NCBI RefSeq assembly: GCF_000737325.1
Contig: NZ_CP011125.1
Span: 9,052,001 to 9,116,000, forward strand
Direction of reading: 5' to 3'
Length of the DNA stretch: 64,000 nucleotides
Source of the DNA: Sandaracinus amylolyticus
GTDB taxonomy: Bacteria > Myxococcota_A > Polyangia > Polyangiales > Sandaracinaceae
This document shows positions 1,282 through 53,277 of the stretch, piece by piece. The notes beneath the pieces are model-generated. The model saw only the letters and a program-made list of their open reading frames with translations. It was not told where the DNA came from and did no database searches. Within the stretch, counting starts at the first letter, position 1. Each line of letters starts with the position of its first letter. The position numbers and the translations under genes are program-made.

Positions 1282-1833
1282 TCAAGCCTTTGCAGCGGCC
1301 TTCGGCTTCTTGCCCTTCGCGGGCTTGTTCTTGTGCCGCACGACCGGAGCGACCTTCTTCTCGATCGTCTCGATCGAGCCGCCGGCCTTCTCGATCTTCT
1401 CCTTCGCCGAGGCGCTGAACGCGTCCGCCTTGACGACGAGCTTCTTCGAGAGCTCACCCGTGCCGAGAATCTTCACGCCGTCCCAGCGGCCCTTCACCAA
1501 GCCGCGTGCGCGGAGCGCCGCCTCGTCGACCGTCGCGCCAGCCTCGAACGCGTCGAGCGACTTGACGTTCACCGGGGCGAGGTCGCGCGGGAACAGCGAG
1601 TTGAAGCCGACCTTCGGGAGGCGGCGGTTGAGCGGCATCTGGCCGCCCTCGAAGTGCAGCTTGTGGATGTTGCCGGGCTGACGGGCCTTCTGACCCTTCT
1701 GACCGCGGCCCGCGGTCTTGCCCAGGCCCGATCCGGGACCACGGCCGACGCGCAGCTTCTTCGTGACCGCACCCTTCGGGGCGCGCAGGCGCGAGAGGAT
1801 CGGCACCTCTGCGCTGATCTTCTCGTCAGCCAT
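1282..1833 (-). CDS. rplO: 50S ribosomal protein L15 (uL15)
   Basis: Large-subunit protein needed late in 50S assembly. 183 residues, longer than the usual 145-150. The N-terminal glycine-rich GRGPGSGLGKTAGRGQKGQ region and the following GGQMPLNRRLPK segment identify it. The extra length is a Lys/Ala-rich C-terminal tail. Its ATG overlaps the end of rpmD by 8 nt, which implies translational coupling. Confidence 0.97.
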   Translation of the reverse strand: MADEKISAEVPILSRLRAPKGAVTKKLRVGRGPGSGLGKTAGRGQKGQKARQPGNIHKLHFEGGQMPLNRRLPKVGFNSLFPRDLAPVNVKSLDAFEAGATVDEAALRARGLVKGRWDGVKILGTGELSKKLVVKADAFSASAKEKIEKAGGSIETIEKKVAPVVRHKNKPAKGKKPKAAAKA

Positions 1834-2020
1834 CGATCTCCTCCACCGACACGAGGTGGATCACCTTCTTGATCGCACCGCGGAACGCGGGCGTGTTCGC
1901 CACGACGACCTCGGTGTGCGGGCCGCGGAGACCGAGACCCTTGAGCGTGCGGCGCATGGCCTCCGTGCGGCCGATGCCGCTGCGGAGCTGCTTCACCTTG
2001 AGCTTCGGCTTGATCGCCAT
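1826..2020 (-). CDS. rpmD: 50S ribosomal protein L30 (uL30)
   Basis: Small large-subunit protein, 64 residues, the normal length for bacterial L30. KVKQLRSGIGRTEAMRRTLKG and the closing region match the family. It sits between rpsE and rplO as in most spc operons, with a 20-bp gap to rpsE and an 8-nt overlap with rplO. Confidence 0.95.
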   Translation of the reverse strand: MAIKPKLKVKQLRSGIGRTEAMRRTLKGLGLRGPHTEVVVANTPAFRGAIKKVIHLVSVEEIDG

Positions 2021-2040
2021 GATGCGCTCTCCCTCTGAGC

Positions 2041-2547
2041 TCAGACGCGGATCTCGTCCGCGGCCTTGCCGCGACGGCGCGCGACGTCGTCGATCGACTC
2101 GAGCGAACGGAGCGCGTCCATCGTCGCGTGGACGACGTTGTGCGGGTTCGAGGTGCCGACGATCTTGCAGAGCACGTCGTGCACGCCCGCCGCCTCGAGC
2201 ACCGGGCGCATCGCGCCGCCGGCGATCACGCCGGTACCGGGGCTCGCCGGGTTCAGCAGCACGCGGCCCGCGCCAGCGTGACCGAACACGCGGTGCGGGA
2301 TCGAGCCACCGACCAGCGGGATGCGGATCAGGTTCTTCTTCGCGCGGTCGGTGCCCTTGCGGATCGCGTCCGGCACCTCGTTCGCCTTGCCGAGGCCCAC
2401 GCCGACGTGGCCCTTGCCGTCGCCGACGACGACCAGCGCGCTGAAGCTGAAGCGGCGGCCGCCCTTCACGACCTTCGCGACGCGGTTGATGTGGATCACC
2501 CGCTCCTTGAGGTCCTCGAGGCTCTCGGGATCGATGATGGCGCTCAT
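2041..2547 (-). CDS. rpsE: 30S ribosomal protein S5 (uS5)
   Basis: Small-subunit protein involved in decoding accuracy and the mRNA entry tunnel. 168 residues. [19 protein letters not shown] is the conserved N-terminal S5 double-stranded-RNA-binding fold. The C-terminal fold ([17 protein letters not shown]) follows. It lies between rplR and rpmD in canonical order. Confidence 0.97.
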
Positions 2548-2582
2548 GTGACTTCCGTTCTCTCAGTCAGTCCGGACGCGGC

Positions 2583-2939
2583 TCAGAAGTCGAGCCCCGC
2601 CTCGCGCGCCGCGTCGGCGAGAGCCTTCACGCGACCGTGGTAGATGTAGCCGTTGCGGTCGAACACGACCTTCGCGATGCCCTTGTCCTTGCAGACCTTC
2701 GCGATCGCCTGGCCGACGACCTTCGCGACGTCGCTCTTGTTCTTCTCGCCGAGCTCGCCGCGCACATCCTTGCTGAGCGTCGAGACCGCCGCGAGCGTCT
2801 TGCCCTGCGAGTCGTCGATCACCTGCACGTAGATGTGCTTCGCGCTGCGGAACACGGTCAGACGCGGGCGCTCGGTGTCGCCACTGACGTTCTTGCGAAT
2901 GCGCTTCTTGCGCTTCGCGCGCTGCTCGTCCAATGCCAT
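2583..2939 (-). CDS. rplR: 50S ribosomal protein L18 (uL18)
   Basis: 5S rRNA-binding protein of the large subunit. 118 residues, family-typical. A basic N-terminus ([12 protein letters not shown]) is followed by [20 protein letters not shown] and a C-terminus ending in the usual REAGLDF. Canonical position between rplF and rpsE. Confidence 0.97.
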
Positions 2940-3003
2940 CTTCGATTCCTTTCGTGACTCCGCGGGGGGCGGCTTCGTACGCCCCCTCCGTCACGCGTTC
3001 AGA

Positions 3004-3612
3004 TCACTTCTTGCCGCCCTTGCCGCCAGCCTTACCGGCCTTCTCGCGGACCTTCTCGTCGACGTACCGCACGCCCTTGCCCTTGTAGGGCTCCGGCGGG
3101 CGGAACGAGCGGATGCGCGCAGCCGTCTGGCCGAGCAGCTCCTTGTCGTGCGACTCGAGGTGCAGGCGCGGCTTCTTGGTGCCGCCGACGTCGAGCACTT
3201 CGACCTTCGCCTTGATCCCATCGGGAAGGCGGAAGAACACCGGGTGCGAAAGGCCGAGGTTCAGGGTCAGATCCTGGCCCTTCACTTCCGCCTTGTACCC
3301 GGTGCCGATCAGGTCGAGCGAGCGCGTGTAGCCCTTGCTCACGCCCTCGACGATGTTCTTGATCAGCGCGCGCGTGAGGCCCTGGTACTGGGCGAACGCG
3401 GTCGTGTCACCCGACGAGCGCGGCGCGAGGACGAGGGTGTTGCCCTCCTTCTTCACGTCGACCACCGCCGGGAGCTCGCGCTCCATCGAGCCCTTCGGGC
3501 CCTTCGCGACCAGCTTGCCGCCCTTGACGTCGATCTGGACGCCCGCGGGAAGCTCCACCGGGCGCTTGCCGACGCGCGAGACGCGAACGGTCTGCTGCTC
3601 CGCCGTCGCCAT
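3004..3612 (-). CDS. rplF: 50S ribosomal protein L6 (uL6)
   Basis: Large-subunit protein near the factor-binding site. The ATG at 3612 shares one base with the rpsH stop (TGATG arrangement), so I prefer it to two GTG codons just upstream; this gives 202 residues. SRVGKRPVELPAGV opens the protein, and PEPYKGKGVRYVDE near the end is the L6 signature. A Lys/Gly-rich tail extends it beyond the usual 175-180 residues. Confidence 0.96.
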   Translation of the reverse strand: MATAEQQTVRVSRVGKRPVELPAGVQIDVKGGKLVAKGPKGSMERELPAVVDVKKEGNTLVLAPRSSGDTTAFAQYQGLTRALIKNIVEGVSKGYTRSLDLIGTGYKAEVKGQDLTLNLGLSHPVFFRLPDGIKAKVEVLDVGGTKKPRLHLESHDKELLGQTAARIRSFRPPEPYKGKGVRYVDEKVREKAGKAGGKGGKK

Positions 3613-4004
3613 CACCACACCTCGCAGAGGATCTCGCCGCCGACGCGCTTCTCGCGCGCCGAGCGGTCGGTCATCACGCCCTGCGACGTCGACAGGATCG
3701 CGACCCCGGTCCCGTTCTGGACCTTCGGGATCTCGTCGTGTCCGACGTACACACGGCGGCCCGGGCGCGACGCCCGGCGGATGCCCGCGATCGCACTGTG
3801 GCGATCACGGCCGTGGTACTTGAGCTGGATCGAGATCGTGCGCGCGCCCTCGTCCACCGAGAAGCCCAGCACGAACCCTTCGTCACGGAGGATCTCCGCG
3901 ACGTGCACCTTCAGCTTCGACAGCGGCACGTCCGTCCGCTCGTGCCGCGCGAGCGACGCGTTGCGGATGCGAGCGAGCATGTCGGCGATCGGATCGGTCA
4001 TCAT
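3612..4004 (-). CDS. rpsH: 30S ribosomal protein S8 (uS8)
   Basis: 16S rRNA central-domain binder. 130 residues. It starts with TDPIADMLARIRNA, which is diagnostic, and carries GTGVAILSTSQGVMTDR near the C-terminus. Two adjacent ATG codons are possible starts. The stop overlaps the rplF start by one base, so translation is probably coupled. Confidence 0.97.
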   Translation of the reverse strand: MMTDPIADMLARIRNASLARHERTDVPLSKLKVHVAEILRDEGFVLGFSVDEGARTISIQLKYHGRDRHSAIAGIRRASRPGRRVYVGHDEIPKVQNGTGVAILSTSQGVMTDRSAREKRVGGEILCEVW

Positions 4005-4022
4005 GACGACGCTACTCCCTGA

Positions 4023-4208
4023 TCACCACGAGCTCTTCGTCACGCCCGGGATGTCGCCCGCGAGGGCGTACTTCCGCAGGCAAACGCGGCAGAGCTCGAA
4101 CTTCCGATAGACCGCCCGGGGGCGACCGCACACCTTGCACCGGTTGCGGTAACGCACCTGGAACTTGGGCGTCTTCTCCATCTTCGCGAACGCGCGGGCG
4201 CTGGCCAT
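4023..4208 (-). CDS. rpsN: 30S ribosomal protein S14, zinc-binding type (uS14)
   Basis: 61-residue short form of S14. Two CxxC pairs (CKVCGRP and CRVCLRK) form a zinc ribbon, so this is the C+ (type Z) version rather than the roughly 100-residue zinc-free form. It lies between rplE and rpsH as expected. Confidence 0.97.
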
Positions 4209-4226
4209 TCTCGATCTCCTCAGGAC

Positions 4227-4781
4227 TTACTTGCGGAAGGGCATCCCGAGCTCGCGGAGGAGCGCGCGTCCCTGTTCGTCGGTGCGGGCGGTGGTCACGA
4301 AGGTGACGTTCATGCCCTTGATCTTCTCGATCTTGTCGTAGTCGATCTCGGGGAAGATGATCTGCTCGCGCACGCCCAGCGTGTAGTTCCCGCGGCCGTC
4401 GAACGCCTTCGGGCTCACGCCCTTGAAGTCGCGCACGCGCGGAAGACCGAGGTTCACGAGCCGGTCGAGGAACTCCCACATGCGCTGCTTGCGCAGGGTG
4501 ACCATCGCACCGATCGGCGCGTTCTCGCGCAGCTTGAAGCTCGCGATCGACTTCTTCGCGCGGGTCACGACCGGCTTCTGGCCGGTGATCGTGCCGAGCT
4601 CCTCGACCGCCGACTCGATGATCTTCTGGTTCTGGACGGCCTCGCCCAGACCCATGTTGACCACGATCTTCTGCAGCCGGGGAACCTCCATGATGTTCCC
4701 GAGCTGGAGTTCCTTCTGGAGCGCCGGGACGACGTTCTCCCGGTAGTGCTTCTCGAGACGCGCGAGCTGCTGATCCGCCAT
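4227..4781 (-). CDS. rplE: 50S ribosomal protein L5 (uL5)
   Basis: 5S rRNA-binding protein. 184 residues, standard. [19 protein letters not shown] and the C-terminal [20 protein letters not shown] are classic L5 signatures. A 99-bp gap separates it from rplX, longer than other gaps in the cluster, and holds a 9-bp hairpin. Confidence 0.97.
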
Positions 4782-4855
4782 TTCCGATTCACCTCACCCG
4801 ACCTTCGAGCGCTCTCTTCCGCGCGCTCGATGTCGAGTCTCCACTCGATATCTGA

Positions 4856-4876
4856 CTCTGCTGCTGCGCAGCAGAG
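4856..4876 (-). other. Short hairpin between rplX and rplE
   Basis: A perfect 9-bp inverted repeat (CTCTGCTGC, loop TGC, GCAGCAGAG) lies just after the rplX stop codon on the transcribed strand. No T-tract follows, so it is more likely an RNA-stability or spacer hairpin than a terminator. Function is inferred. Confidence 0.45.
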
Positions 4877-4880
4877 AAGC

Positions 4881-5195
4881 TCAGTCGATCGCCGCGCCGC
4901 TCTTCACGGCGACGCGGACCTTCTTGCCATCCTTCTCGGCGAAGCGGACGCGCGTGGGCTTGTCCGTCTTCGCGTCGACGAGCATGACGTTCGAGATGTG
5001 GATCGCGGCTTCCTTCTCGATGATGCCGCCCGACGGGTTCTTCGGCGTGGGCTTGGTGTGCCGCTTCACGCGGTTCACGCCCTCGACGATCACGCGATCC
5101 TCCTCGCGGATCACGCGCAGGACGCGGCCCTTCGTGCCCTTGTCCTTGCCGGCGATGACGACGACCTGGTCGTCCTTCTTGACGCGGATACCCAT
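4881..5195 (-). CDS. rplX: 50S ribosomal protein L24 (uL24)
   Basis: Assembly-initiator protein of the 50S subunit. 104 residues with the KOW motif (IRVKKDDQVVVIAGKDKGTKG) at the N-terminus. The ATG at 5195 overlaps the rplN stop by one base; a GTG sits three bases upstream. Confidence 0.96.
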   Translation of the reverse strand: MGIRVKKDDQVVVIAGKDKGTKGRVLRVIREEDRVIVEGVNRVKRHTKPTPKNPSGGIIEKEAAIHISNVMLVDAKTDKPTRVRFAEKDGKKVRVAVKSGAAID

Positions 5196-5563
5196 CACAC
5201 CACCTCGGGCGCGAGGCTGATGATCTTCATGAACTTCTTGCCGCGGAGCTCGCGCGCCACCGGCCCGAAGATGCGCGTGCCGATCGGCTCGAGCTGCGCA
5301 TTGAGCAGCACCGCGCTGTTGTGGTCGAACTTGATGTAGCTGCCGTCGGCGCGCTGGTACTCGCGGCGGGTACGGACGACGACGGCCTTCGCCACGTCAC
5401 CCTTCTTCACCTTCGCCGTCGGCAGCGCTTCCTTCACCGCGACGACGATCAAGTCGCCGAGGCCGGCCCAACGACGACGCGAGCCGCCGAGGACCTTGAT
5501 GCACTCCACGCGCTTCGCGCCGCTGTTGTCGGCGACGTCGAGCTCGGTCTGCTGCTGGATCAT
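5195..5563 (-). CDS. rplN: 50S ribosomal protein L14 (uL14)
   Basis: Large-subunit interface protein. 122 residues, exactly the family length. It begins [18 protein letters not shown] and contains the L14 signature. It overlaps rplX by one base and follows rpsQ after 3 bp. Confidence 0.98.
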
Positions 5564-5566
5564 GGC

Positions 5567-5887
5567 TCAGACCTCCTCGGGGCGATCGACGAGGCGCACG
5601 GCGACCCAGCGCTTCGTGGCCGAGAGCGGGCGGCTCTCACGGATCTCGATGAGATCGTTCGTGCGGAACTGCTCGGTCTCGTCGTGCGCGTGGTAGCGCT
5701 TCCGGCGCTTGATGTACTTGCCGTAGATCGGGTCGCGAAGGCGGCGGACCACCTCGACCGTCACGGTCTTCTTCGCGCGGCCCGCGCTCGCGGTGTCGCT
5801 GATCACACGGCCGACCAGGTGGCGCTTGTTTCCGCGCTCCTCGTCGTTCTTCGGCGTCGGCCCCTTGGCCTGCGTCGCGTCGCTCAT
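5567..5887 (-). CDS. rpsQ: 30S ribosomal protein S17 (uS17)
   Basis: 16S rRNA-binding protein with an OB fold. The ATG at 5887 gives 106 residues. A polar N-terminal extension of about 18 residues precedes the conserved RHLVGRVISDTASAGRAKKT. The segment YIKRRKRYHAHDE and the C-terminal RPLSATKRW also fit. Longer in-frame starts run into rpmC and are not credible. Confidence 0.95.
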   Translation of the reverse strand: MSDATQAKGPTPKNDEERGNKRHLVGRVISDTASAGRAKKTVTVEVVRRLRDPIYGKYIKRRKRYHAHDETEQFRTNDLIEIRESRPLSATKRWVAVRLVDRPEEV

Positions 5888-5892
5888 CTCGC

Positions 5893-6105
5893 TCACCCGT
5901 TCTCGCCGGCGGCCTTCGTCGCGCGCTCGGTCATCAGCGTCTTCACGCGAGCGATGTCGCGACGGAGACGGCGGATCTTGTCGGTGTCGTCGAGCTGGTT
6001 CGAGTAGTTCGAGAAGCGCGACTGCCACAGTTCGCGCGTCATCGACTTCTCGAGCTCCTTGAGCTCGTCGTCGGTCTTGTCACGGAGCTCGGAAGGCTTC
6101 GTCAC
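5893..6105 (-). CDS. rpmC: 50S ribosomal protein L29 (uL29)
   Basis: Small helical protein at the peptide exit tunnel. The GTG at 6105 forms a GTGA overlap with the rplP stop and gives 70 residues, the usual size. [19 protein letters not shown] is the typical N-terminal helix, and the [14 protein letters not shown] region is conserved. Confidence 0.94.
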
Positions 6106-6518
6106 AGCTGCTGACTCCTCATCACGAAGCGGGTGGCGACCGGGAGCTTGTGCCCGGCCAGACGGAACGCCTCGCGCGCGACCGACTCCTCGACGCCCTC
6201 CATCTCGTAGAGGATGCGGCCGGGCAGGATCTGCGCGCGCCAACCCTCGACTGCGCCCTTGCCGGTACCCATTCGGGTCTCGAGGGGCTTCTTCGTGAAG
6301 GGCTGGTCGGGGAAGATGCGGATGTAGAGCTTGCCAGCGCGCTTCGCGTGGCGCTGGATCGCCATACGAGCGGCCTCGATCTGACGCGAGGTGATGTGAC
6401 CGCTCTCGAGGGCCTGGAGGCCGAAATCACCGAACGAGACCGAGCTGCCGCGCTGGGCGACGCCACGGAGATTGCCGGTGTGCGACTTGCGGAACTTGGT
6501 GCGCTTGGGCTGCAGCAT
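6102..6518 (-). CDS. rplP: 50S ribosomal protein L16 (uL16)
   Basis: Large-subunit protein near the A site and peptidyl-transferase centre. 138 residues. [18 protein letters not shown] is the conserved start, and [20 protein letters not shown] is the L16 signature region. It overlaps rpmC by 4 nt. Confidence 0.98.
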
Positions 6519-6549
6519 GGGAGTGCTCGCTCTTCTGCTCGGTCGGCGA

Positions 6550-7206
6550 TCAGCCGGCGACGGGCTGGCGGCGGCGGCGCTGCGGGAGCACCTCGCCCTT
6601 GAAGATCCAGACCTTCACGCCGATCGTGCCGTAGGTCGTCTTCGCGGTCGCGACGCCGAACTCGATGTCGGCGCGCAGCGTGTGGAGCGGCACGCGGCCC
6701 TCGCGGTAGCGCTCCGAGCGCGCGATCTCGGCGCCGCCGAGGCGGCCGCCGGCGTAGATGCGGATGCCCTTCACGCCGAACTTCATCGCGGTCTGGAGCG
6801 CCTTCTTCATCGCGCGGCGGAACGCGACACGGCGCTCGAGCTGCGTCGCGATGTTCTCGGCGACGAGCTGCGCGTTCGTCTCGGCCTTGCGGACCTCGGT
6901 GATGTCGACGAAGAGCTCGTTGCCGGTGAGCTTCTGGAGCTCGCCACGGAGCTGCTCGACGCCTGCGCCGCGCTTGCCGATGATGATGCCGGGGCGCGAG
7001 GTCGAGATGACGACCTTCACCTTGTTCGCCGCGCGCTCGATCTCGATCGCCGCGATGCCGGCGTGCGCGTAGTTGGTGCGAACGTGCTCACGAAGGGCGA
7101 GGTCCTCGTGGAGCCACTTCGAGTAGTTCTTGTCCTCGTACCACTTGGAGTTCCAGGTTCGGATCACTCCGAGGCGGAACCCGTACGGATGCGTCTTCTG
7201 ACCCAC
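6550..7206 (-). CDS. rpsC: 30S ribosomal protein S3 (uS3)
   Basis: mRNA-entry protein with a KH domain. 218 residues. It opens [20 protein letters not shown]. The KH loop [17 protein letters not shown] is intact. The C-terminal domain includes the conserved [12 protein letters not shown]. Canonical place between rplV and rplP. Confidence 0.98.
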
Positions 7207-7214
7207 GTGAAACC

Positions 7215-7559
7215 TCAGCCTTCGTCCGACACGACGAGCGTGATGTGGCTCATGCCCTTGGTGATGCGGGTCGCGCGGCCCTGGGCGCGCGGACGCCAGC
7301 GGCGCATGAACCGGTCGGGCGCCTTGTCCGCGAAGACCGTCTTCACGACGAGGTTGTCGAGATCGACGTTCTGGTCCTTCTGACGCGCGTTCGAGATCGC
7401 GCTGTCGAGGAGCTTCGCCACGATCGGCGCGGCCGCCTTCTTGGTGAAGCGCAGCATCTCGAGCGCCTCGGCGGCGTTGCGTCCGCGGATCAGGTTCGCG
7501 ATCACGCGCGCCTTGCGGACGGCGATACGCTGGTTCCGAGCCTTCGCGATGGCTTCCAT
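7215..7559 (-). CDS. rplV: 50S ribosomal protein L22 (uL22)
   Basis: Exit-tunnel protein, the site of macrolide-resistance mutations in other bacteria. The ATG at 7559 ([18 protein letters not shown]) gives 114 residues, the family length. The C-terminal hairpin ([20 protein letters not shown]) is present and unchanged in length. A 105-bp gap separates it from rpsS, the longest inside the S10 part. Confidence 0.97.
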
Positions 7560-7664
7560 TGTCTTTCTCTGCCTACGCTCTGCTGCTGCTAGGAAAAATG
7601 CTGGGCTCGGGAAAAAGGGCGCCGGATCTAACACAGCGCCCCTGATCCGTCGAGCCGTTCTTGA

Positions 7665-7955
7665 TCACTTCTTGGCGGGCGGCGCCTTCGCCTTGCGATC
7701 CGCCGCGTGCCCGCCGAAGGTGCGCGTGGGCGCGAACTCGCCGAGCTTGTGACCGACCATGTTCTCGGTGACGAACACCGTGATGAACTTGCGTCCGTTG
7801 TGGACGTTGAAGCTCAGACCGACGAAGTCGGGGGTGATCGTCGAGCGACGCGACCACGTCTTGATGACGCGGCGATCGTTGTTGCGAGCCGACGTCTCGA
7901 CCTTGGCGGCGAGCGGGGCGTCGACGAAGGGGCCCTTCTTGAGCGAGCGTGCCAT
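7665..7955 (-). CDS. rpsS: 30S ribosomal protein S19 (uS19)
   Basis: Head-domain small-subunit protein. 96 residues. [15 protein letters not shown] is the universal N-terminus, and [17 protein letters not shown] is the S19 signature. Between rplB and rplV as expected. Confidence 0.98.
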
Positions 7956-7981
7956 TCGAGTCTCCGATTCCTACCGACCGC

Positions 7982-8809
7982 TCACTTGTCGCGGCGCTTG
8001 ACGATGAACTTGTCGCTCGTCTTGTTCGTGCGGGTCTTCAGGCCCTTCGCGAGCTGGCCCCACGGCGAGCAGGGGTGACGACCACCGGACGTGCGACCCT
8101 CACCACCACCCATCGGGTGATCGACCGGGTTCATCGCGACACCGCGGTTGTGCGGGCGGCGACCGAGCCAGCGCGTGCGACCCGCCTTGCCGTGCGAGAC
8201 GCGCGCGTGCTGGAGGTTCGAGACCTGACCGACGGTCGCGCGGCAGTTCAGGTGCACCATGCGGACCTCGCCGCTGGGCAGACGAACCTGCGCGTACTCG
8301 CCGTCCTTCGCCATCAGCTGCGCCGCGGCGCCGGCCGAGCGGACGAGCTGACCGCCCTTGCCGATCTTGAGCTCGATGTTGTGGACCATCGTGCCCACCG
8401 GGATGAAGCGCAGACGAAGCGCGTTGCCCGGCGTGATGTCGGCGTTCTTGCTCGAGACGACCGTGTCGCCCTGCTTCAGGCCGTCCGGCGCGAGGATGTA
8501 CGCCTTCTCGCCGTCGAGGTAGTGCAGGAGCGCGACGCGCGCCGAGCGATTGGGGTCGTACTGGATCGAGTGCACCTTCGCGGGCACGCCGATCTTGTTG
8601 CGCTTGAAGTCGATGACGCGATAGCGGCGCTTGTGGCCACCGCCGCGGAACCGCGAGGTGATGCGGCCGCTGTTGTTACGGCCGGCCTTCGAGTGCTGCG
8701 ACTCGGTGAGCTTGCGCTCGACCGCCGCGCCCTTGGTGAGGACCGAGAAGTCCGGCACCTCGAAGTGGCGGCGTCCCGCCGACGTCGGCTTGAACTTGCG
8801 GATCGCCAT
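7982..8809 (-). CDS. rplB: 50S ribosomal protein L2 (uL2)
   Basis: Core peptidyl-transferase-region protein. 275 residues. It carries the L2 signature [20 protein letters not shown] with the conserved functional histidine. [20 protein letters not shown] near the N-terminus is also typical. It follows rplW by 3 bp. Confidence 0.99.
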
Positions 8810-8812
8810 GGG

Positions 8813-9103
8813 TCAGGTTCCTTCACCGAGGTCGATCGTCTCGCCCTCGCGGACCTGCACGATCGCCTTCTTCCAGTTCTGCGTCTTCGCGTGGCCGCGT
8901 CCCATGCGGCGCATGCGACCGCGGACGATCATCGTCTGCACGTCGACGACTGCGACGTTGAAGAGCGTCTCGACCGCGTTCTTGATCTCGATCTTGTTCG
9001 CGCCGCGCGCGACCTCGAAGAGGTACTTGTTCTGCGTCTCACGCAGAGCGTTGCCCTTCTCGGTCAGGATCAGCGGGCGCTTGATGACGTGCTCGGGAAG
9101 CAT
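8813..9103 (-). CDS. rplW: 50S ribosomal protein L23 (uL23)
   Basis: Exit-tunnel protein and docking site for trigger factor and SRP. 96 residues. VIKRPLILTEKGNALRE and VETLFNVAVVDVQTM match L23. It lies between rplD and rplB. Confidence 0.96.
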   Translation of the reverse strand: MLPEHVIKRPLILTEKGNALRETQNKYLFEVARGANKIEIKNAVETLFNVAVVDVQTMIVRGRMRRMGRGHAKTQNWKKAIVQVREGETIDLGEGT

Positions 9104-9116
9104 TGCAGTCGGCCTC

Positions 9117-9746
9117 TCACGCGCTCTTGCAGCGGGCCTCGAGGGCCTGCGCCGCGCTCTTGGTCAGCACGACGTGCTCGTGACGGAGCAGGTCGTACAC
9201 GTTGACGCCCTCGGGCGGAAGATACTGGTGCGCGTCGAGATTGCGGGCCGACAGCTGGAGCTTGTCGTTGCCCTTCGCGTCGACGATCAGCGAGCTCTTG
9301 CCGACCTTGAGGGTCGAGAGGACGCCCGCGAGCGCCTTCGTCTTGATCTCGGCGAGGTCGAAGGTGTCGACCACCGTGAGGCGGCCTTCCTTGAGCTTCA
9401 TCGAGAGCGCGCTCGCGAGCGCGCCGATGCGCTGCTTGCGGTTCGGACGGTACGAGTAGTCGCGCGGCACGGGGCCGTGGACCTGACCACCCCCGACGAA
9501 GTTCGGGGCATTGCGGTCGCCGTGACGCGCCGAGCCCGTGCCCTTCTGGCGGTAGATCTTCTTCGTGCTGCCCGAGACCTCGGCGCGGTTCTTCGTCTTG
9601 TGCGTGCCCGAGCGCTTGCTCGCGAGCTGCGCCTTCACGACTTCGTAGAGAAGCGCTTCGTTGACGTCGCGGCCGAACACTTCGTCCGACAGCTCGAGCT
9701 CGCCCACGCTCTCGCGGCGCAGGTTGTAGACCGGAATCTTTGCCAT
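9117..9746 (-). CDS. rplD: 50S ribosomal protein L4 (uL4)
   Basis: Exit-tunnel constriction protein. 209 residues. The tunnel loop region YRQKGTGSARHGDRNAPNF and the following GGGQVHGPVPRDYSY are diagnostic. It starts only 14 bp after rpsJ. In nearly all bacteria rplC separates these two genes; here it does not. Confidence 0.98.
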   Translation of the reverse strand: MAKIPVYNLRRESVGELELSDEVFGRDVNEALLYEVVKAQLASKRSGTHKTKNRAEVSGSTKKIYRQKGTGSARHGDRNAPNFVGGGQVHGPVPRDYSYRPNRKQRIGALASALSMKLKEGRLTVVDTFDLAEIKTKALAGVLSTLKVGKSSLIVDAKGNDKLQLSARNLDAHQYLPPEGVNVYDLLRHEHVVLTKSAAQALEARCKSA

Positions 9747-9760
9747 GACGTTCCCCGCGC

Positions 9761-10072
9761 TCAGCTCTTGATCTCGACCTCGACACCCGCCGAGAGATCG
9801 AGCTTCATGAGGGCCTCGAGCGTCTGCTGGTTCGGCTCGAGGATGTCGAGAAGGCGCTTGTGAGTGCGGATCTCGAACTGTTCACGCGACTTCTTGTCGA
9901 CGTGCGGGCCACGGAGAACCGTGAACTTCGAGATGCGGGTGGGCAGCGGGATCGGTCCCGCGACGCGCGCGCCGGTCCGCTTCGCGGTGTCGACGATCTC
10001 CGACGCGCTCTGGTCGAGCAGGCGGTGGTCGTACGCCTTGAGGCGAATCCGGATCTTCGTGGCAGCAGCCAT
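9761..10072 (-). CDS. rpsJ: 30S ribosomal protein S10 (uS10)
   Basis: Small-subunit protein that also acts as NusE in antitermination. 103 residues. [17 protein letters not shown] and [19 protein letters not shown] are the family signatures. It leads the S10 part of the cluster, 53 bp after tuf. Confidence 0.98.
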
Positions 10073-10125
10073 GATTCTATCCTTCCGAGTCCAGCGTTCG
10101 AGTCAGAGTCAGAGTCTCGACTCGA

Positions 10126-11316
<1,191 letters not shown>

Positions 11317-11368
11317 GACTCGTGTCCTCTAGTCTTCGATATCGGCGGGAGTCTTCAGAGGGCGGCGA

Positions 11369-13489
11369 TCAGCCCTTGCCCTTGACCTTCGCGATGATTC
11401 CGTCCGCGACGTTGTTCGGCACCGCGGCGTAGTGCGAGAAGGTCATCGTGTAGCTCGCGCGACCCTGCGTCTTGCTGCGCAGATCCGTCGAGTAACCGAA
11501 CATGTTCGCGAGCGGCACGTCGGCGGTGACGACCTTCATGTTGCCGCGCTGGTCCATGTTCTTGACCTGGCCGCGGCGCGAGTTGAGGTCGCCGATGACG
11601 TCGCCCATGAAGTCCTCGGGACAGACCACCTCGACTGCCATCATCGGCTCGAGGAGGTTGAGGCCCGAACGCTTCGCGGCTTCCTGGAAGGCCATCGAGC
11701 CGGCGATCTCGAACGCGTTCGCGTTCGAGTCGACGTCGTGATAGCTGCCGTCGACGAGGCGCGCCTTCACGTCGATCACGGGATAGCCCGCGAGCACGCC
11801 GCGCGTCATCGCGTCCTTGATGCCCTTCTCGACCGGCGGGATGAACTCCTTCGGCACCACGCCGCCGACGATCCCGTTCTCGAACACGAAGCCGCTGCCC
11901 GGCTCACCCGGCTCGAGGTCGATGTAGACGTGGCCGTACTGGCCGCGACCACCCGACTGCTTGACGTACTTGCCCTCGATCTTCTTGACGGGCTTCTGGA
12001 TCGACTCGCGGTACGCGACTTCGGGCGCACCGACGTTCGACTCGACCTTGTGCTCGCGCTTGAGCCGGTCGACCATGATCTCGAGGTGCAGCTCGCCCTG
12101 GCCGGCGATGATCGTCTGGCCGGTCTCCGCGTTCGTGTACGCGCGGAACGAGGGGTCCTCCGCGATCAGCTTGCCGAGCGCCTCGCCGAGCTTCGTCTGA
12201 TCGGCCTTCGTCTTCGGCTCGATCGCCTGCGAGATGACCGGCTCCGGGAAGATCATCCGCTCGAGGATGATCGGGTGCTTCTCGTCGCAGAGCGTGTCAC
12301 CCGTGCGGACGTCCTTGAGGCCGACGGCCGCGCAGATGTTGCCCGCCTGGATGTCCTTGATCTCCTCGCGCTTGTTCGCGTGCATGCGGAGGAGACGACC
12401 GATGCGCTCGCGCTTGCCCTTCGTGCTGTTGAGCACCGACGCGCCGCTCTCGAGCGTGCCCGAGTAGACGCGGATGAAGGTCAGCTGACCGACGAACGGG
12501 TCGTTGATGATCTTGAACGCGAGGCCGGCGAAGGGCTCGTTGTCGTCCGCCTTGCGCGAGAGCTTCTTCTCCGCGTCGTCGACGTCCTCGCCCTGCACGG
12601 GCGGGATGTCGAGGGGCGACGGGAGGAAGTCGACGACCGCGTTGAGCAGGAGCTGGACGCCCTTGTTCTTGAAGGCCGACCCGCAGATGACGGGCACGCA
12701 CTTGAACGCGAGGGTGCCAGTCCGGAGCGCGCTCAAGATCTCGTCGACGCTGAAGCTCGTGTCGCCCTCGAGGTAGCGCTCCATGAGCTTGTCATCGAGC
12801 TCGGCGACCGCCTCGAGCAGACGCTCGCGCGTCTTGTTCGCCTGGTCCTGGTACTCCGCCGGGATCTCGACGACGTCGTACTTCGAGCCCTTCGCGTCGT
12901 CGTGGAAGACGAACGCCTTCATGCGGACGATGTCGAGGATGCCGCGGTGGTTCTCCTCGGTGCCGAGGGGCAGCTGCACCGCGATCGCGTTCGCGCCGAG
13001 GCGCTCCTTGATCGACAGGAACGAGCGGTCGAAGTTCGCGCCCGCGCGGTCCATCTTGTTGATGAAGCAGATGCGCGGAACACGCCAACGGTCGGCCTGA
13101 CGCCACACCGTCTCGGACTGCGGCTCGACGCCGGCGACGCCGTCGAACACCGTCACCGCGCCATCGAGCACGCGCAGCGAGCGCTCGACTTCGATCGTGA
13201 AGTCGACGTGGCCGGGGGTGTCGATGATGTTCACGCGGAACTGCTGGCCGTTGAACAGGCCCAGCTCCGGACGCCAAAAGCAGGTCGTCGCCGCGGAGGT
13301 GATCGTGATTCCACGCTCCTGCTCCTGCTCCATGTAGTCCATGGTCGCAGCGCCGTCGTGGACTTCGCCGATCTTGTAGTTGACGCCCGTGTAGAAGAGG
13401 ATGCGCTCGGTCGTCGTGGTCTTGCCGGCATCGATGTGCGCCATGATGCCGATGTTGCGCGTTCTCTCGAGCGGGTACTCGCGGGGCAC
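11369..13489 (-). CDS. fusA: Translation elongation factor G
   Basis: Translocase GTPase. The GTG at 13489 with a GGAG 6 nt upstream begins the classic [19 protein letters not shown] and gives 706 residues; the frame stays open upstream but that part has no EF-G homology. P-loop [23 protein letters not shown] and NKMDRAGAN are present. Domains II-V continue to a short Lys-rich end. Confidence 0.98.
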
Positions 13490-34224: not shown

Positions 34225-34280
34225 TGGTAGATCCTTACCTGCTACCGGCCTGCGCCGGCGGTTGGTCAAGACCCCCGTTC

Positions 34281-34313
34281 AAACCGTGCGTGCGGATTTC
34301 CCGCACACGGCTT
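34281..34313 (-). other. Group II intron domain V
   Basis: A 33-nt hairpin starting AAGCCGTGTGCGG, with a GAAA tetraloop and ending in GCACGGTTT. The catalytic AGC triad is at its 5' base and a 2-nt bulge splits the stem. It begins 25 nt after the maturase stop codon. Confidence 0.88.
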
Positions 34314-34338
34314 ACGGGCAGTCTCTCGAGTCGCTGCA

Positions 34339-35790
34339 TTACGCGACCTCCTGGAAGAAGGCTCGCTCGGGGTACTGCACGGTCCCTCGCAGGCGATGAA
34401 GTCCGAGGCTCCAGAAGTACTCGCGCGTCCACCTGCTCGACTCCCCCGGCTTCAGATGCCGGCCCTTGCGCTCCACGCGCAGGTCCCGCAGCCGACGCCA
34501 GACGTAGCTGTCGAGTTGGTTGAATTTCTTGGCGGCATTTCCGGTGCGGAAGTAGTTGCCCCAGCCCCGCAGCACGGGGTTGAGATCGGCGATCACCTCG
34601 CGGAGATCCGCGTGGCAGCGCCTCCTCGGGGTCAGCTCCTTCACGCGCTGTCTCACCCGCTTCATCGCGCGCGCGGACGGCCAGCGATGCAGGAAATAGA
34701 GGCGTCTGCCTTTCCTCTCCCACAGCGCTCCGCTCATGCGTTTGTGCAGGTGATGACCGAGAAAATCGAAGCCCTGCTTGCCATCGTAGAGCTCGACTCG
34801 CCTCGTCTTGTCCGGATGCAGCTCGAGACCGAGGCGCCCGAGGATGACTCGAATGCGCCTCTCTGCCTCTTCGCACTCGCGCTTCGTCGTGCACATCACG
34901 ACGAAGTCGTCCGCGTAGCGCACCAGCGTCCCGAGCGGGGCGCTCTTACGCATCCACGTCACGTCGAGCACGTGCAGGTAGATGTTCGAGAGCAGCGGAG
35001 AGATGACTCCGCCCTGCGGCGTTCCCGCGATGTTGCGAGTCACGACGCCCCCGTCCATCACGCCCGCTTCGAGCCACTGCCGCACCAGCTTGAGCATCCG
35101 CCGATCCGAGATGCGTCGAGCGACGAGCTTCATCAGCTTGTCGTGATCGATGCTCCCGAAGTAGTCGCGGATGTCGGCGTCGAGCACGTGGTGATGCCCC
35201 TTCGCGCCGAGCTTCCTCAGCGTCTCCAGCGCACCCAGCGCGCCCCGCTTCGGCCGGAAGCCCCACGAGCACGGAAGAAAGTCCGCCTCGAAGATCGGCT
35301 CCAGCACCAGCTTCGCCGCCATCTGGACCACTCGATCCCGGACCGTCGGAATCCCCAGCGGCCGCTTCCTTCCATCTGCCTTCGGGATGTACCGGCGCAG
35401 CACCACCTCGGGCCGGTACGTCTTGCTCCGCAGTGCGTCGCCGAGCTCTTCGAGGAAGCGCTCGACTCCGTACTGCTTCACCTCGGCGATCGTCTGGCCA
35501 TCGACGCCCGCCGCGCCCTTGTTCGCCTCGACTCGCTTCCACGCTTCCCGAAGGACGTCACTCCTCCAGATGTGGTCATGAAGAGCGTGAAAACGTCTTC
35601 CAGGTGCTCGCTTGGCCGCGACCCACAGTCGCCTCTGCAGTTGTCGCACTTCTTCGCGCGGCCTACGGCCGCCGGGGTCGTTAGGTCCGGTCCTGCCGGC
35701 CATTCCCTCGCGCTTACCTGCTTCCTCGACGTGACTGCCCCAGGGACCCTTCCCTCCCGTCGCGTTGTTCTGCACGACGTTCGTCGACAT
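34339..35790 (-). CDS. ltrA: Group II intron reverse transcriptase/maturase
   Basis: 483 residues from the ATG at 35790. RT block 0-1 region (EAWKRVEANKGAAGVDG, RPLGIPTVRDRVVQ), FRPKRGALGALE, AGTPQGGVISPLLSNIYL and the catalytic YADD (292-295) are intact. Domain X/thumb (LNPVLRGWGNYFRTGNAAKKF) follows at about 400. There is no HNH/En zinc domain, so it belongs to an endonuclease-less class. The frame remains open up to 36282, but that part is intron domain I RNA and not protein. Confidence 0.95.
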   Translation of the reverse strand: MSTNVVQNNATGGKGPWGSHVEEAGKREGMAGRTGPNDPGGRRPREEVRQLQRRLWVAAKRAPGRRFHALHDHIWRSDVLREAWKRVEANKGAAGVDGQTIAEVKQYGVERFLEELGDALRSKTYRPEVVLRRYIPKADGRKRPLGIPTVRDRVVQMAAKLVLEPIFEADFLPCSWGFRPKRGALGALETLRKLGAKGHHHVLDADIRDYFGSIDHDKLMKLVARRISDRRMLKLVRQWLEAGVMDGGVVTRNIAGTPQGGVISPLLSNIYLHVLDVTWMRKSAPLGTLVRYADDFVVMCTTKRECEEAERRIRVILGRLGLELHPDKTRRVELYDGKQGFDFLGHHLHKRMSGALWERKGRRLYFLHRWPSARAMKRVRQRVKELTPRRRCHADLREVIADLNPVLRGWGNYFRTGNAAKKFNQLDSYVWRRLRDLRVERKGRHLKPGESSRWTREYFWSLGLHRLRGTVQYPERAFFQEVA

Positions 35791-36300
35791 CGCCGTGGCG
35801 ATGCCGTGCGGTACTACGATCCCCTCGGACTCCCGCTGCGCGGCGGCCGATTTCGCCTTCGGCTTATACGGCGCGCTTCGCCCCGACGAGGGCTGCGCAG
35901 ACGGGCCTCTCGTGTTCCGCGCTTCTCCGTGATCGCGTGCTGCGCCCCATACCCCGCCGAGACTCGATGCGCGCTCCGGAACAGACGCTTCGAGCGTGGC
36001 CTTCGCCGTGAAATGAGCGGCTCGGCTCTCGGATTGTTCATCTGACGAGGCTGCAGGCTTCACTTCATGTTGCGGCCCGCGATCTTGCTCCCCGCTGCAC
36101 AGCTCTCGCTGCCTGACGGGCTTTCGACGCCCCGCTCGGGACGACGGGATCTCTCCCGACGCCTGGGGCCTGCTACTCGGCGCTCCGGCGCCTACCGAGG
36201 CGGGACTCTCACCCGCAGGAGAAGCGCAGCGCGCAGACGTCGGCCCTACGGCTCGACCTTCGTCTGCGTCACGACGCACCATCTCGCGAGCGTAGCGTGC

Positions 36301-40712: not shown

Positions 40713-40756
40713 GGCGGGCGCCCCCGGCGCGCTCCGGATCGCGTCCCGGGCGGCCC

Positions 40757-40990
40757 GAACGCGATCCGGAGGGCGCCGGACGACGGCCCAGCGCGCCAGG
40801 ACGCGATCCGGAGAACGCCGGACGACGTCCCGCGCGCCCGGAGCACGATCCGGAGATCGCCGGATGACGTCCCGCGGCCCCGGAGCGCGATCCGGAGCGC
40901 GCCGGATGACGTCTCGGGCCCCCAGAACGCGATCCGGAGCCCACCGGAGACCGCCGGGCGCGCCACGACGCGATCCGGAGCGCGCGAGCG
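40757..40990. repeat. 42-bp tandem repeat array
   Basis: Six copies of a unit containing CGATCCGGAG recur at 40762, 40804, 40846, 40888, 40930 and 40971, with spacing 42 bp (41 for the last). Between the cores the text GCGCCGGACGACGTCCCG varies moderately. It fills the gap between convergent genes ending at 40712 and 40995. Because 42 is a multiple of three, frames through it stay open and show a 14-residue period, but none has a start site or composition like a gene. Confidence 0.85.
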
Positions 40991-50750: not shown

Positions 50751-51173
50751 ATGGTCGGCATCGTGCGCAAAGGACCGGGCTGGCCGGATCGTCTTCCACC
50801 GCCACCGCGGGCGCGTCAGGGCGATCCCGCATGCGCCAAGTGCGGAGAGCCCGTCGCGCCGGACGAGCGCGACGCCGGCGAGCCGGTGCGTCATCTGGTC
50901 TGCGACACGCAGGTGCGGGGGGCGCTGCTGCGGCGCATCGAGGCGAGCCGCGCCGTCCATCGCGCGGCGGCCGCGCTCGCCGCGGTGCCCGCGGTGCAGG
51001 CGAAGCTGACGGCGGACATCGCCGCGCTCCCCGACGCGTGCGACGTGGGCGACGCGCTCGCGTTCCTCGCGCGGGCGCGCGTCGTGGTCGAGTGCAGCTC
51101 GGAGCTCTCGCCGCAGCAGCGGCGCGTCGCGATCTCGTTCGTCGACGCGACGATCCGGAAGCTCGGCGGATGA
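50751..51173 (+). CDS. Small protein of unknown function with CxxC
   Basis: 140 residues from the ATG at 50751. An ATG at 50688 with GGGGG upstream would add 21 residues; I prefer the later start because of the -10-like box 7 nt before it. ACAKCGEPVAPDE holds a CxxC pair and a later VCDTQ adds a Cys. The rest is helical (RRIEASRAVHRAAAALAAVP). Its stop overlaps the next gene (ATGA). Confidence 0.65.
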   Translation: MVGIVRKGPGWPDRLPPPPRARQGDPACAKCGEPVAPDERDAGEPVRHLVCDTQVRGALLRRIEASRAVHRAAAALAAVPAVQAKLTADIAALPDACDVGDALAFLARARVVVECSSELSPQQRRVAISFVDATIRKLGG

Positions 51174-51838
51174 GCGCGACGAAGCTGGGAGCGCTGGCGG
51201 CGATCGTGATCGCGATCGCCGCGACCGAGGTGCGCGCGCAGGACGTCGCGCCGACCACCGAGGACGCGAGCGCCGACGCGACGACGCCGGTCGCCGAGCC
51301 GGTCGTGACGGCGCCGCCGGCGGTCGAAGCGCCGCCTCCGCAGCGTGCGATCGCGCGCGGTCGCGGGGTCACGTGGGGGCTCGCGCTGGTGGTGCCGGTC
51401 CTCGTGACCGACGTGATCGAGGCCAACGGGCACGTCATCGACTACATCGCGCCGGGCGGCGGCGTCGACGGACGGGTGGGCTTCGAGCTCTCGGGCGGGA
51501 TCTCGCTCGGGGTGACCGGCGGCGTGAGCGCGCATGCGTCGCAGAATTCGCGCTCGCTCGCGATGTACCGGGGCGGCGTCGAGGCGCGGTGGACGGTCGA
51601 CCTCGGCGACATGGTCGCGCCCTCGTTCGGGATCGCCGCCGGGGTGCTGCTCGTGGAGCTCGATGCCGGGCTGCAGGTCACCGCCTACGGACGGGTACTG
51701 GCCGGGGTGCAGCTGATGTTCGCGCCGTGGGTCGCGATGGAGCTCGGGGTGTCGGTCGAAGGCGCGCTCGGGCTGGACGCGTTCCGCGATCCCATCCTGT
51801 GGGTCTCGCCCCAGGTCGGGATTTCGTTCTACGAGTGA
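51170..51838 (+). CDS. Putative outer-membrane beta-barrel protein
   Basis: 222 residues. A signal peptide ends EVRAQD. A Pro/Ala/Thr-rich stretch to about 60 leads to alternating hydrophobic/Gly beta strands (VGFELSGGISLGVTGGVSAH, PSFGIAAGVLLVELDAGLQV, ILWVSPQVGISFYE). The C-terminal aromatic end fits a small barrel. Function unknown. Confidence 0.72.
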   Translation: MSATKLGALAAIVIAIAATEVRAQDVAPTTEDASADATTPVAEPVVTAPPAVEAPPPQRAIARGRGVTWGLALVVPVLVTDVIEANGHVIDYIAPGGGVDGRVGFELSGGISLGVTGGVSAHASQNSRSLAMYRGGVEARWTVDLGDMVAPSFGIAAGVLLVELDAGLQVTAYGRVLAGVQLMFAPWVAMELGVSVEGALGLDAFRDPILWVSPQVGISFYE

Positions 51839-51866
51839 TACATCCGCGGGCCCACAGGGCGATCCG

Positions 51867-52124
51867 CACTCTGCAGGGTCGGGGTAGAGCCGGCGCTACC
51901 CTCGATCCTCACTCTGCAGGGTCGGGGTAGAGCCGGCGCTACCCTCGATCCTCACTCTGCAGGGTCGGGGTAGAGCGGGCGCTACCCCCGATCCTCACTC
52001 TGCAGGGTCGGGGTAGAGCGGGCGCTACCCCCGATCCCCACTGTGCGGAATCGGGGTAGAGCGGGCTCTACCCCCGATCCCCACTGTGCAGAGTCGGGGT
52101 CGCGCCGGCTCCACCGCCACCCGC
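51867..52124. repeat. 43-bp tandem hairpin array
   Basis: Six copies starting at 51867, 51910, 51953, 51996, 52039 and 52082, each exactly 43 bp apart. Each unit has CACTCTGCAGGGTCGGGG followed by an inverted repeat. In copy 5 it is a perfect 10-bp stem (GGGGTAGAGC, GG, GCTCTACCCC). In copies 1-4 one pair is mismatched. Copy 6 is degenerate. It fills the gap between convergent genes ending at 51838 and 52132. No spacers are present, so it is not CRISPR. Confidence 0.9.
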
Positions 52125-52131
52125 GCCGCGC

Positions 52132-53277
52132 TCACCCGAGCGCGAGCACGCGCACGCCGATCTCGCCTTCGATCTCGACGAGCTCGCCGAGCGCGATGGT
52201 TCGCTCCCCGGCGCGCAGCACCACGCGCTCGCCGAGCGCGCGCCCCGTCGCGAGCACCTCGCCGGGGCGCAGCGCCGCGAGCTCGGCGAGCGGCATCTCG
52301 AAGCGCGCGAGCTCGACCACGAGCTCCACCGGCGCATCGCCCACCGCCTCGAGCATCCGCGCGGTCGCGCCGCTCTCCTCCTGCGCCATCTCGACCTCCT
52401 CTTCCCTGCGCCGCACCACGGGCGGGCGCGGCTCGATCGCGCGCACCACGATCCGCGTCGCGTCGCCTCCCGCGCCCTCGAGCGCGCACCGCCAGCGCGT
52501 CGCGCCGCGACGCACGCGCGCGATCACCTCACCCGCGAGCCCGCTCGCGCTCGGCGTCGCGCTCGCGTCGTCGAGGATCACGACGTCGCCCTCCGCGAGG
52601 CCCACCACGTCGCGCGCGCCGAGGCTCGCGCGACCGCCCCCGATCACGATCGTCGCGGCGAGCCCGCCGAGCGCCGCGGCGTGCGGCGCGTGCGTCGTCT
52701 CCGCGCTGCGCGCGAGGAGCGCCTCGGGGATCCACACCCGCACGATCCCGGCGTGCGCGCCGAGCGACGCCCGCAGCGGCCAGCACGCGCCGCCGCGATC
52801 ACCGAGGGCGAGCAGCACCGCCTCGGGCGTCGTCACCACGGTCGCGATCCGCAGCGCGCCGCCGGCCGCCGGGCCGAGCGCGCGGGCGATCGCGTAGGCG
52901 AGCACGCCGCGCTCGGCCTCGGTGAGCGCGCCGGGATGGAGCGGCGCGTCGTCGCCCGCGCCGAGCACGCGCTCGACGACCACCGCCGCGAGGCGTGGCT
53001 CGACGTCGATCGCGATGCGCGCGCCGAGCGGCGCGGCAGGCTCGGCGATCACCGCGCACAGCGGATCGACGAGGTGCGCGGCGAGCGTCCCCGGCGCCCA
53101 CGGCTCGATCGGGAGCGGGTCGAACGCCGGCGTCGCGCCGAGCCACTCGCTCGCCGAGCGCGCCGCGTCGCCGAGCTGCGCGAGGGGCAGACGTCGCGCG
53201 CAGCGGCGCAGCAAGCGGGCCTCGGCGCGCGTCACGCGGGGCAGTCGATCGAAGGGAAAGGGCGTCGCCTCGGGCAC
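52132..53277 (-). CDS. SctQ/FliM-FliN-like C-ring protein
   Basis: 381 residues from a GTG at 53277. The last 75 residues are a SpoA domain ([52 protein letters not shown]), the C-terminal fold of FliN and type III secretion SctQ. An earlier domain has similar beta-rich spacing (about 200-290). The N-terminus resembles SctQ ([20 protein letters not shown]). No other secretion or flagellar gene is nearby, so it is an orphan here. A TAGACT box 8 nt before the GTG suggests a leaderless mRNA. Confidence 0.75.

Follow-up and report, generated by a model that had tools for sequence, protein, structure and literature searches.

Two explanations are usual for tandem repeats: sequence-specific slippage, or a role that the repeated sequence itself performs. 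Bacterial extragenic minisatellites, or VNTR loci, such as those of the MIRU type, are head-to-tail noncoding units of tens of base pairs that are homogenised and differ in copy number between relatives. The LTRR of heterocystous cyanobacteria (37 bp) form noncoding tandem arrays at dispersed loci and belong to one sequence family. REP/BIME arrays are composed of repetitive extragenic palindromes tagged by GTAG or CGTC (PMC3733652). The arrays of Sandaracinus discussed here touch on each of these systems. Like minisatellites, they are head-to-tail, noncoding, homogenised, and copy-variable between relatives; they differ in that 17 unrelated families have one unit length (41-43 bp), frequent dyad symmetry, and a convergent bias. 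They are similar to LTRR in unit size, noncoding nature, and dispersal, but the class has no common sequence family. As in REP/BIME arrays, the repeats are extragenic palindromes, located downstream of genes and in convergent gaps (PMC3733652); unlike them, they have no RAYT match, no solo copies, and no sequence common to most arrays, and their head-to-tail periodicity is exact. Intrinsic bidirectional terminators also place inverted repeats between convergent genes and fold on both strands, whereas the array at the focus of this study has no T-tracts, contains six repeats, and is not conserved in congeners. In the literature, we found no paper that describes arrays of this kind, whether from Sandaracinus or from another myxobacterium.

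The genome of Sandaracinus amylolyticus analysed here is a single contig of 10,327,335 bp with 72% GC, and the window is the whole stretch of 64,000 nucleotides taken from it. As an earlier note on this DNA had claimed, a 43-bp tandem array lies between convergent stops: TRF places it at 51860-52109, with 5.8 copies, 93% matches, and 0% indels. The array fills the gap between the stops at 51838 and 52132, 21 and 22 bp away, and lies outside the called genes in sequence classed as noncoding from its codon usage (Table 1). The protein of the upstream gene is without a Pfam match; a FliN scan of the genome contigs gave no match. Two trivial origins were considered. A repeated peptide of an overlooked gene was rejected, since the frame is lost at 41- and 43-bp periods and codon usage marks the gap as noncoding. 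An artefact of short-read assembly is disfavoured by the genome paper of S. amylolyticus DSM 53668, which describes a 10.33 Mb PacBio HGAP long-read assembly (PMC5010890); if that assembly is of the genome analysed, short reads do not account for the array length.

Table 1. Features of the window, in window coordinates.
Feature	Position	Strand	Details
Convergent gene upstream of the array	51170..51838	+	~222 aa; stop 51836-51838
Six array units	starts 51860, 51903, 51946, 51989, 52032, 52075	.	TRF, units in register
P1 of unit 1 (CGATCCGCACTCTGCAGGGTCG)	51860..51881	.	recurs in units 2-4; imperfect in units 5-6
P2 of unit 1 (GGGGTAGAGCCGGCGCTACCCT)	51881..51902	.	recurs at 51924, 51967, 52010, 52053
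Unit 5 hairpin, perfect stem GGGGTAGAGC/GCTCTACCCC	52053..52074	.	
Other convergent gene, FliMN_C (C-ring, FliN-type) domain protein	52132..53277	-	Pfam PF01052, E 5.9e-19; stop 52132-52134
Second array, CCGGA palindromes	40724..40985	.	42-bp units, 6.3 copies, 262 bp

Most units carry two palindromes. In register, a unit consists of P1 (CGATCCxCACTxTGCxGGxTCG) abutting P2 (GGGGTAGAGCxGGCxCTACCCC). The consensus of the related-array family has the same build, a 21-bp hairpin sequence next to a perfect 22-bp palindrome. The earlier note had recognised the P2 stem-loop and missed the second palindrome (CGATCC...GGGTCG; family consensus CGATCCGCACTCTGCGGATCG), which is present in most of the units. 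It had also described six units at exact spacing. The spacing holds for the stem-loop GGGGTAGAGC...GCTCTACCCC at the five P2 sites of Table 1, separated by exactly 43 bp where shuffles expect 0; the sixth unit is degenerate. The stem is indeed perfect in unit 5. Units 1-4 were said to vary mainly in the loop and one pair; they differ in the loop (C or G) and at one unpaired position (A.G), and units 1-2 also have an outer G-T.

The region folds strongly on both strands, and the question is whether selection on pairing is responsible. RNA folding of the whole gap is far stronger than that of shuffles (z -7.7 and -7.5 on the two strands), although tandem palindromes alone suffice to produce such values. 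For P2 of units 1-5, folding energies on the two strands range from -8.7 to -17.2 kcal/mol; P1 folds well in units 1-4 and weakly on the + strand in units 5-6. Pair-restoring changes, a central claim of the earlier note, are not borne out when 25 distinct units, drawn from all five related arrays in the S. amylolyticus genome, are compared with column shuffles as the null. Pairing is found in 70.7% of cells against 73.2% in shuffles, with 495 of 500 shuffles at least as high; in the window array, the 3' arm of P1 lies one base out of register with that of the other arrays, so that helix 1 pairs less there while helix 2 is unaffected. For the stem named in that note, the values are 64.4% and 69.4% (499 of 500 shuffles at least as high), and covariation across the same 25 units falls below the shuffled mean. 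Sliding the partner register drops pairing to 35-45%; the palindrome is therefore real, yet substitutions do not preserve its pairing. Quasipalindrome template switching is a known mutation mechanism, from which a single pair-restoring change could also stem (PMC7202029).

These results bear on both functions that the earlier note had put forward. A discrete structured noncoding RNA would be in keeping with the strong folding relative to shuffles, but it is highly improbable given that no Rfam family matches at the array, that covariation is lacking, and that the array is absent or reduced in congeners. In a bidirectional terminator or insulator, hairpins at the 3' ends of both transcripts would halt or trim convergent read-through. 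The anatomy suits such a terminator, or a 3'-end RNA element: the array occupies the gap between convergent stops, its P2 hairpins are stable on both strands, and the wider class of such arrays, described below, favours convergent gaps and is almost missing from divergent ones. However, no T-tract stands behind any hairpin of the array, P2 being followed by CGATCC and no T-run; the terminator scan of 51839-52131 is negative, and pairing is not preserved. Together with the copy numbers in congeners, this makes a terminator an unlikely account of the array.

The genome search for the unit suggested in the earlier note, and a comparison of copy number among congeners, place the array in an evolutionary setting. 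The six units here correspond to two in a member of the same genus (G002) and to none in a more distant congener (G001). At the orthologous site of G002, two diverged units occupy 90 bp between flanks that are ~90% identical. Both are about as similar to one window unit as to any other of the six (28-32 of 43 positions); expansion from an ancestral pair of units was accordingly set aside, since gain here and loss there both fit. In G001, the convergent pair is the same, but its stops are ~16 bp apart and no array lies between them; the FliN-domain protein of G001 is 54% identical. As this outgroup lacks the array, a gain within the genus would be the simplest history. A series of zero, two diverged, and six units at one gene pair does not support an insulator required by both genes, and a conserved insulating terminator at the site seems unlikely. 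The head-to-tail, near-identical noncoding units and the copy-number difference between congeners are those of an extragenic minisatellite or VNTR locus.

Elsewhere in the genome, four arrays megabases apart have related 43-bp units, with 75-78% identity in the better orientation. A recognisable unit in five arrays at distant loci means that local amplification alone is insufficient. One candidate for dispersal is a REP/BIME-type mobile palindrome spread by a RAYT transposase, which could leave GTAG-containing palindromes at gene 3' ends in five loci, a placement resembling that of GTAG REPs (PMC3733652). Y1_Tnp (PF01797) has 0 matches in this genome; five of 14 control genomes are positive. 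Some REP-bearing genomes have lost the RAYT gene, and its absence alone is not decisive. Other features also speak against mobile palindromes: the 22-bp P2 palindrome, allowing up to 3 mismatches, occurs in 13 places genome-wide, all inside related arrays and never as a solo copy; the spacing is head-to-tail; and GTAG lies within the P2 stem, not as an unpaired tag at the stem end. This origin, already disfavoured, is very unlikely.

The array belongs to a larger class of noncoding arrays that have unit length in common and sequence not. Our survey spanned 1.52 Mb, ~15% of the genome, picked blind to arrays, the given window being the one exception; genes were called by a codon-usage model, and TRF arrays were counted at 2.4 copies or more. 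Noncoding arrays number 8 at a period of 41, 6 at 42, and 6 at 43 (one 43-bp row of the full array list has fewer copies than the cut-off). Neighbouring periods are almost empty: 36, 45, 49, and 50 have a single array each, and 37-40 and 44 have none; the 20 arrays at 41-43 compare with ~0.2 per period bin elsewhere (Poisson p ~1e-19). Among coding arrays, periods follow multiples of three, and only one array has 42. When the 20 units are compared in pairs, with shuffles as the reference, 17 sequence-unrelated families remain. A TRF-independent count of shared 9-mers finds lags of 41-43 in 12 of 44 repeat-bearing gaps and in 0 of 1259 genes. A 21-bp period (two turns) was also seen, but it is mixed with coding-like 18/21/24 repeats, and we make no claim for it.

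Arrays of this kind extend to relatives. Both G002 (400 kb) and G007, from another genus of the family (386 kb), carry noncoding arrays with 40-43-bp periods. Beyond the family, no 41-43-bp array occurs in 547 kb of Myxococcota-like loci, mostly from MAGs, where about seven would be expected at the rate of this genome, although short-read MAGs may break at repeats. Many arrays of the class are 235-290 bp long, often with ~6 units in ~250 bp. Their location is biased: 13 of 25 arrays with periods near one or two times 42 bp are convergent and 1 of 25 is divergent, against 41 and 119, respectively, of 312 background gaps of at least 150 bp (Fisher p 9e-7); these counts are approximate given automatic gene calls, and the 40724-40985 array looks convergent in the raw sequence where the caller disagrees. 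Unit dyad symmetry exceeds mononucleotide shuffles (mean z 1.74), reaching p<0.05 in 12 of 31 arrays as opposed to 0 of 9 at other periods of 30-79; it is above shuffles for the class and not universal. We rejected the proposal that every ~42-bp unit folds better than its shuffles: the mean z of the class is -1.07, and that of other noncoding arrays is also -1.07. With unit folding only mildly above chance and equal to that elsewhere among noncoding arrays, a general hairpin-driven mechanism is weakly supported.

Comparison with G002 at further loci reveals turnover. The second array of the window, of the same type as the first and absent from the earlier note, has three related arrays elsewhere in the genome. 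At its orthologous site, G002 carries 41 bp x 5.9 in 264 bp of largely different sequence: global identity is 183 of 288 columns (64%, versus 58% when shuffled), while the flanks are 91-94% identical. A 41-bp array at genome position 9161374 is matched in G002 by a degenerate 40-bp repeat with a different sequence. At genome 9393372-9393644, between convergent genes, a 42-bp array has no counterpart in G002, where ~0.9 kb of other ORF-like sequence is found. In addition, G002:C1 has arrays of 83-91-bp units, the GGAGTGCTCG... family, at 9004326-9004593 and 9022351-9022594 (within L160-L162); the corresponding sites of the S. amylolyticus genome are empty and almost clean (11 and 3 bp), and the arrays may have been inserted as whole blocks. 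Similar arrays lie at positions 9222365, 7402103, and 4974695 of that genome.

Another reading is a phased array that would bind protein or absorb supercoils. As in E. coli BIMEs, units of four turns could align the dyads along one side of the helix, within reach of gyrase or a nucleoid protein, where convergent genes give positive supercoiling. The 41-43 period common to 17 unrelated families, the dyad symmetry of the units, the convergent location, and a site that kept period and length while its sequence changed are all compatible with such a role. No motif is common across families, which makes sequence-specific binding unlikely, and arrays come and go between species; we consider a phased array distinctly improbable. 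A broader proposal, doubtful but worth stating, is that some process or constraint fixes the extragenic array unit of Sandaracinus at four DNA turns (41-43 bp), often with about six units, whatever the sequence, and builds or retains the arrays at junctions of convergent transcription units. The arrays would then be candidate sequence-independent buffers of topology or collision.

Our preferred reading, held with slightly better than even confidence, is that the array is an extragenic minisatellite of two abutting palindromes (~21 + 22 bp) and one locus of a length-constrained class. The gap between the convergent genes would tolerate changes in its copy number, and slippage or unequal recombination would homogenise the units. 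We infer that slippage or recombination drives the amplification, with hairpins perhaps assisting; the hairpins themselves would accompany the palindromic unit without being maintained by selection on pairing. Across the class (41-43-bp unit, often ~6 copies, ~250 bp), unit length would be constrained while sequence turns over fast. The common length may derive from how the arrays are amplified or from helix geometry (42 bp being four turns), and not from a function at each site; its possible determinants are the length of four helical turns, a fixed-size amplification intermediate, or the geometry of a hairpin pair. Against the minisatellite reading, the retention of period and length despite changed sequence at the second window array and its G002 counterpart could signify a selected function, and the recognisable unit common to five distant arrays calls for more than local amplification.

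The 17 unrelated 41-43-bp families in ~15% of the genome, and a site that keeps period and length but not sequence, point to a length rule that neither slippage nor sequence function, the two usual accounts, covers. With such a rule, one could test what sets repeat length in bacteria: DNA topology, RNA polymerase collisions, or a repair mechanism.

The window holds other features on its - strand. Two Rfam group II intron matches (D1D4-4 and Intron_gpII) surround the ORF 34339-35481 within 34256-36218. At 1282-13489, a run of small genes is followed by genes of 396 and 706 aa; by size and order, this is a candidate ribosomal protein cluster with EF-Tu and EF-G.
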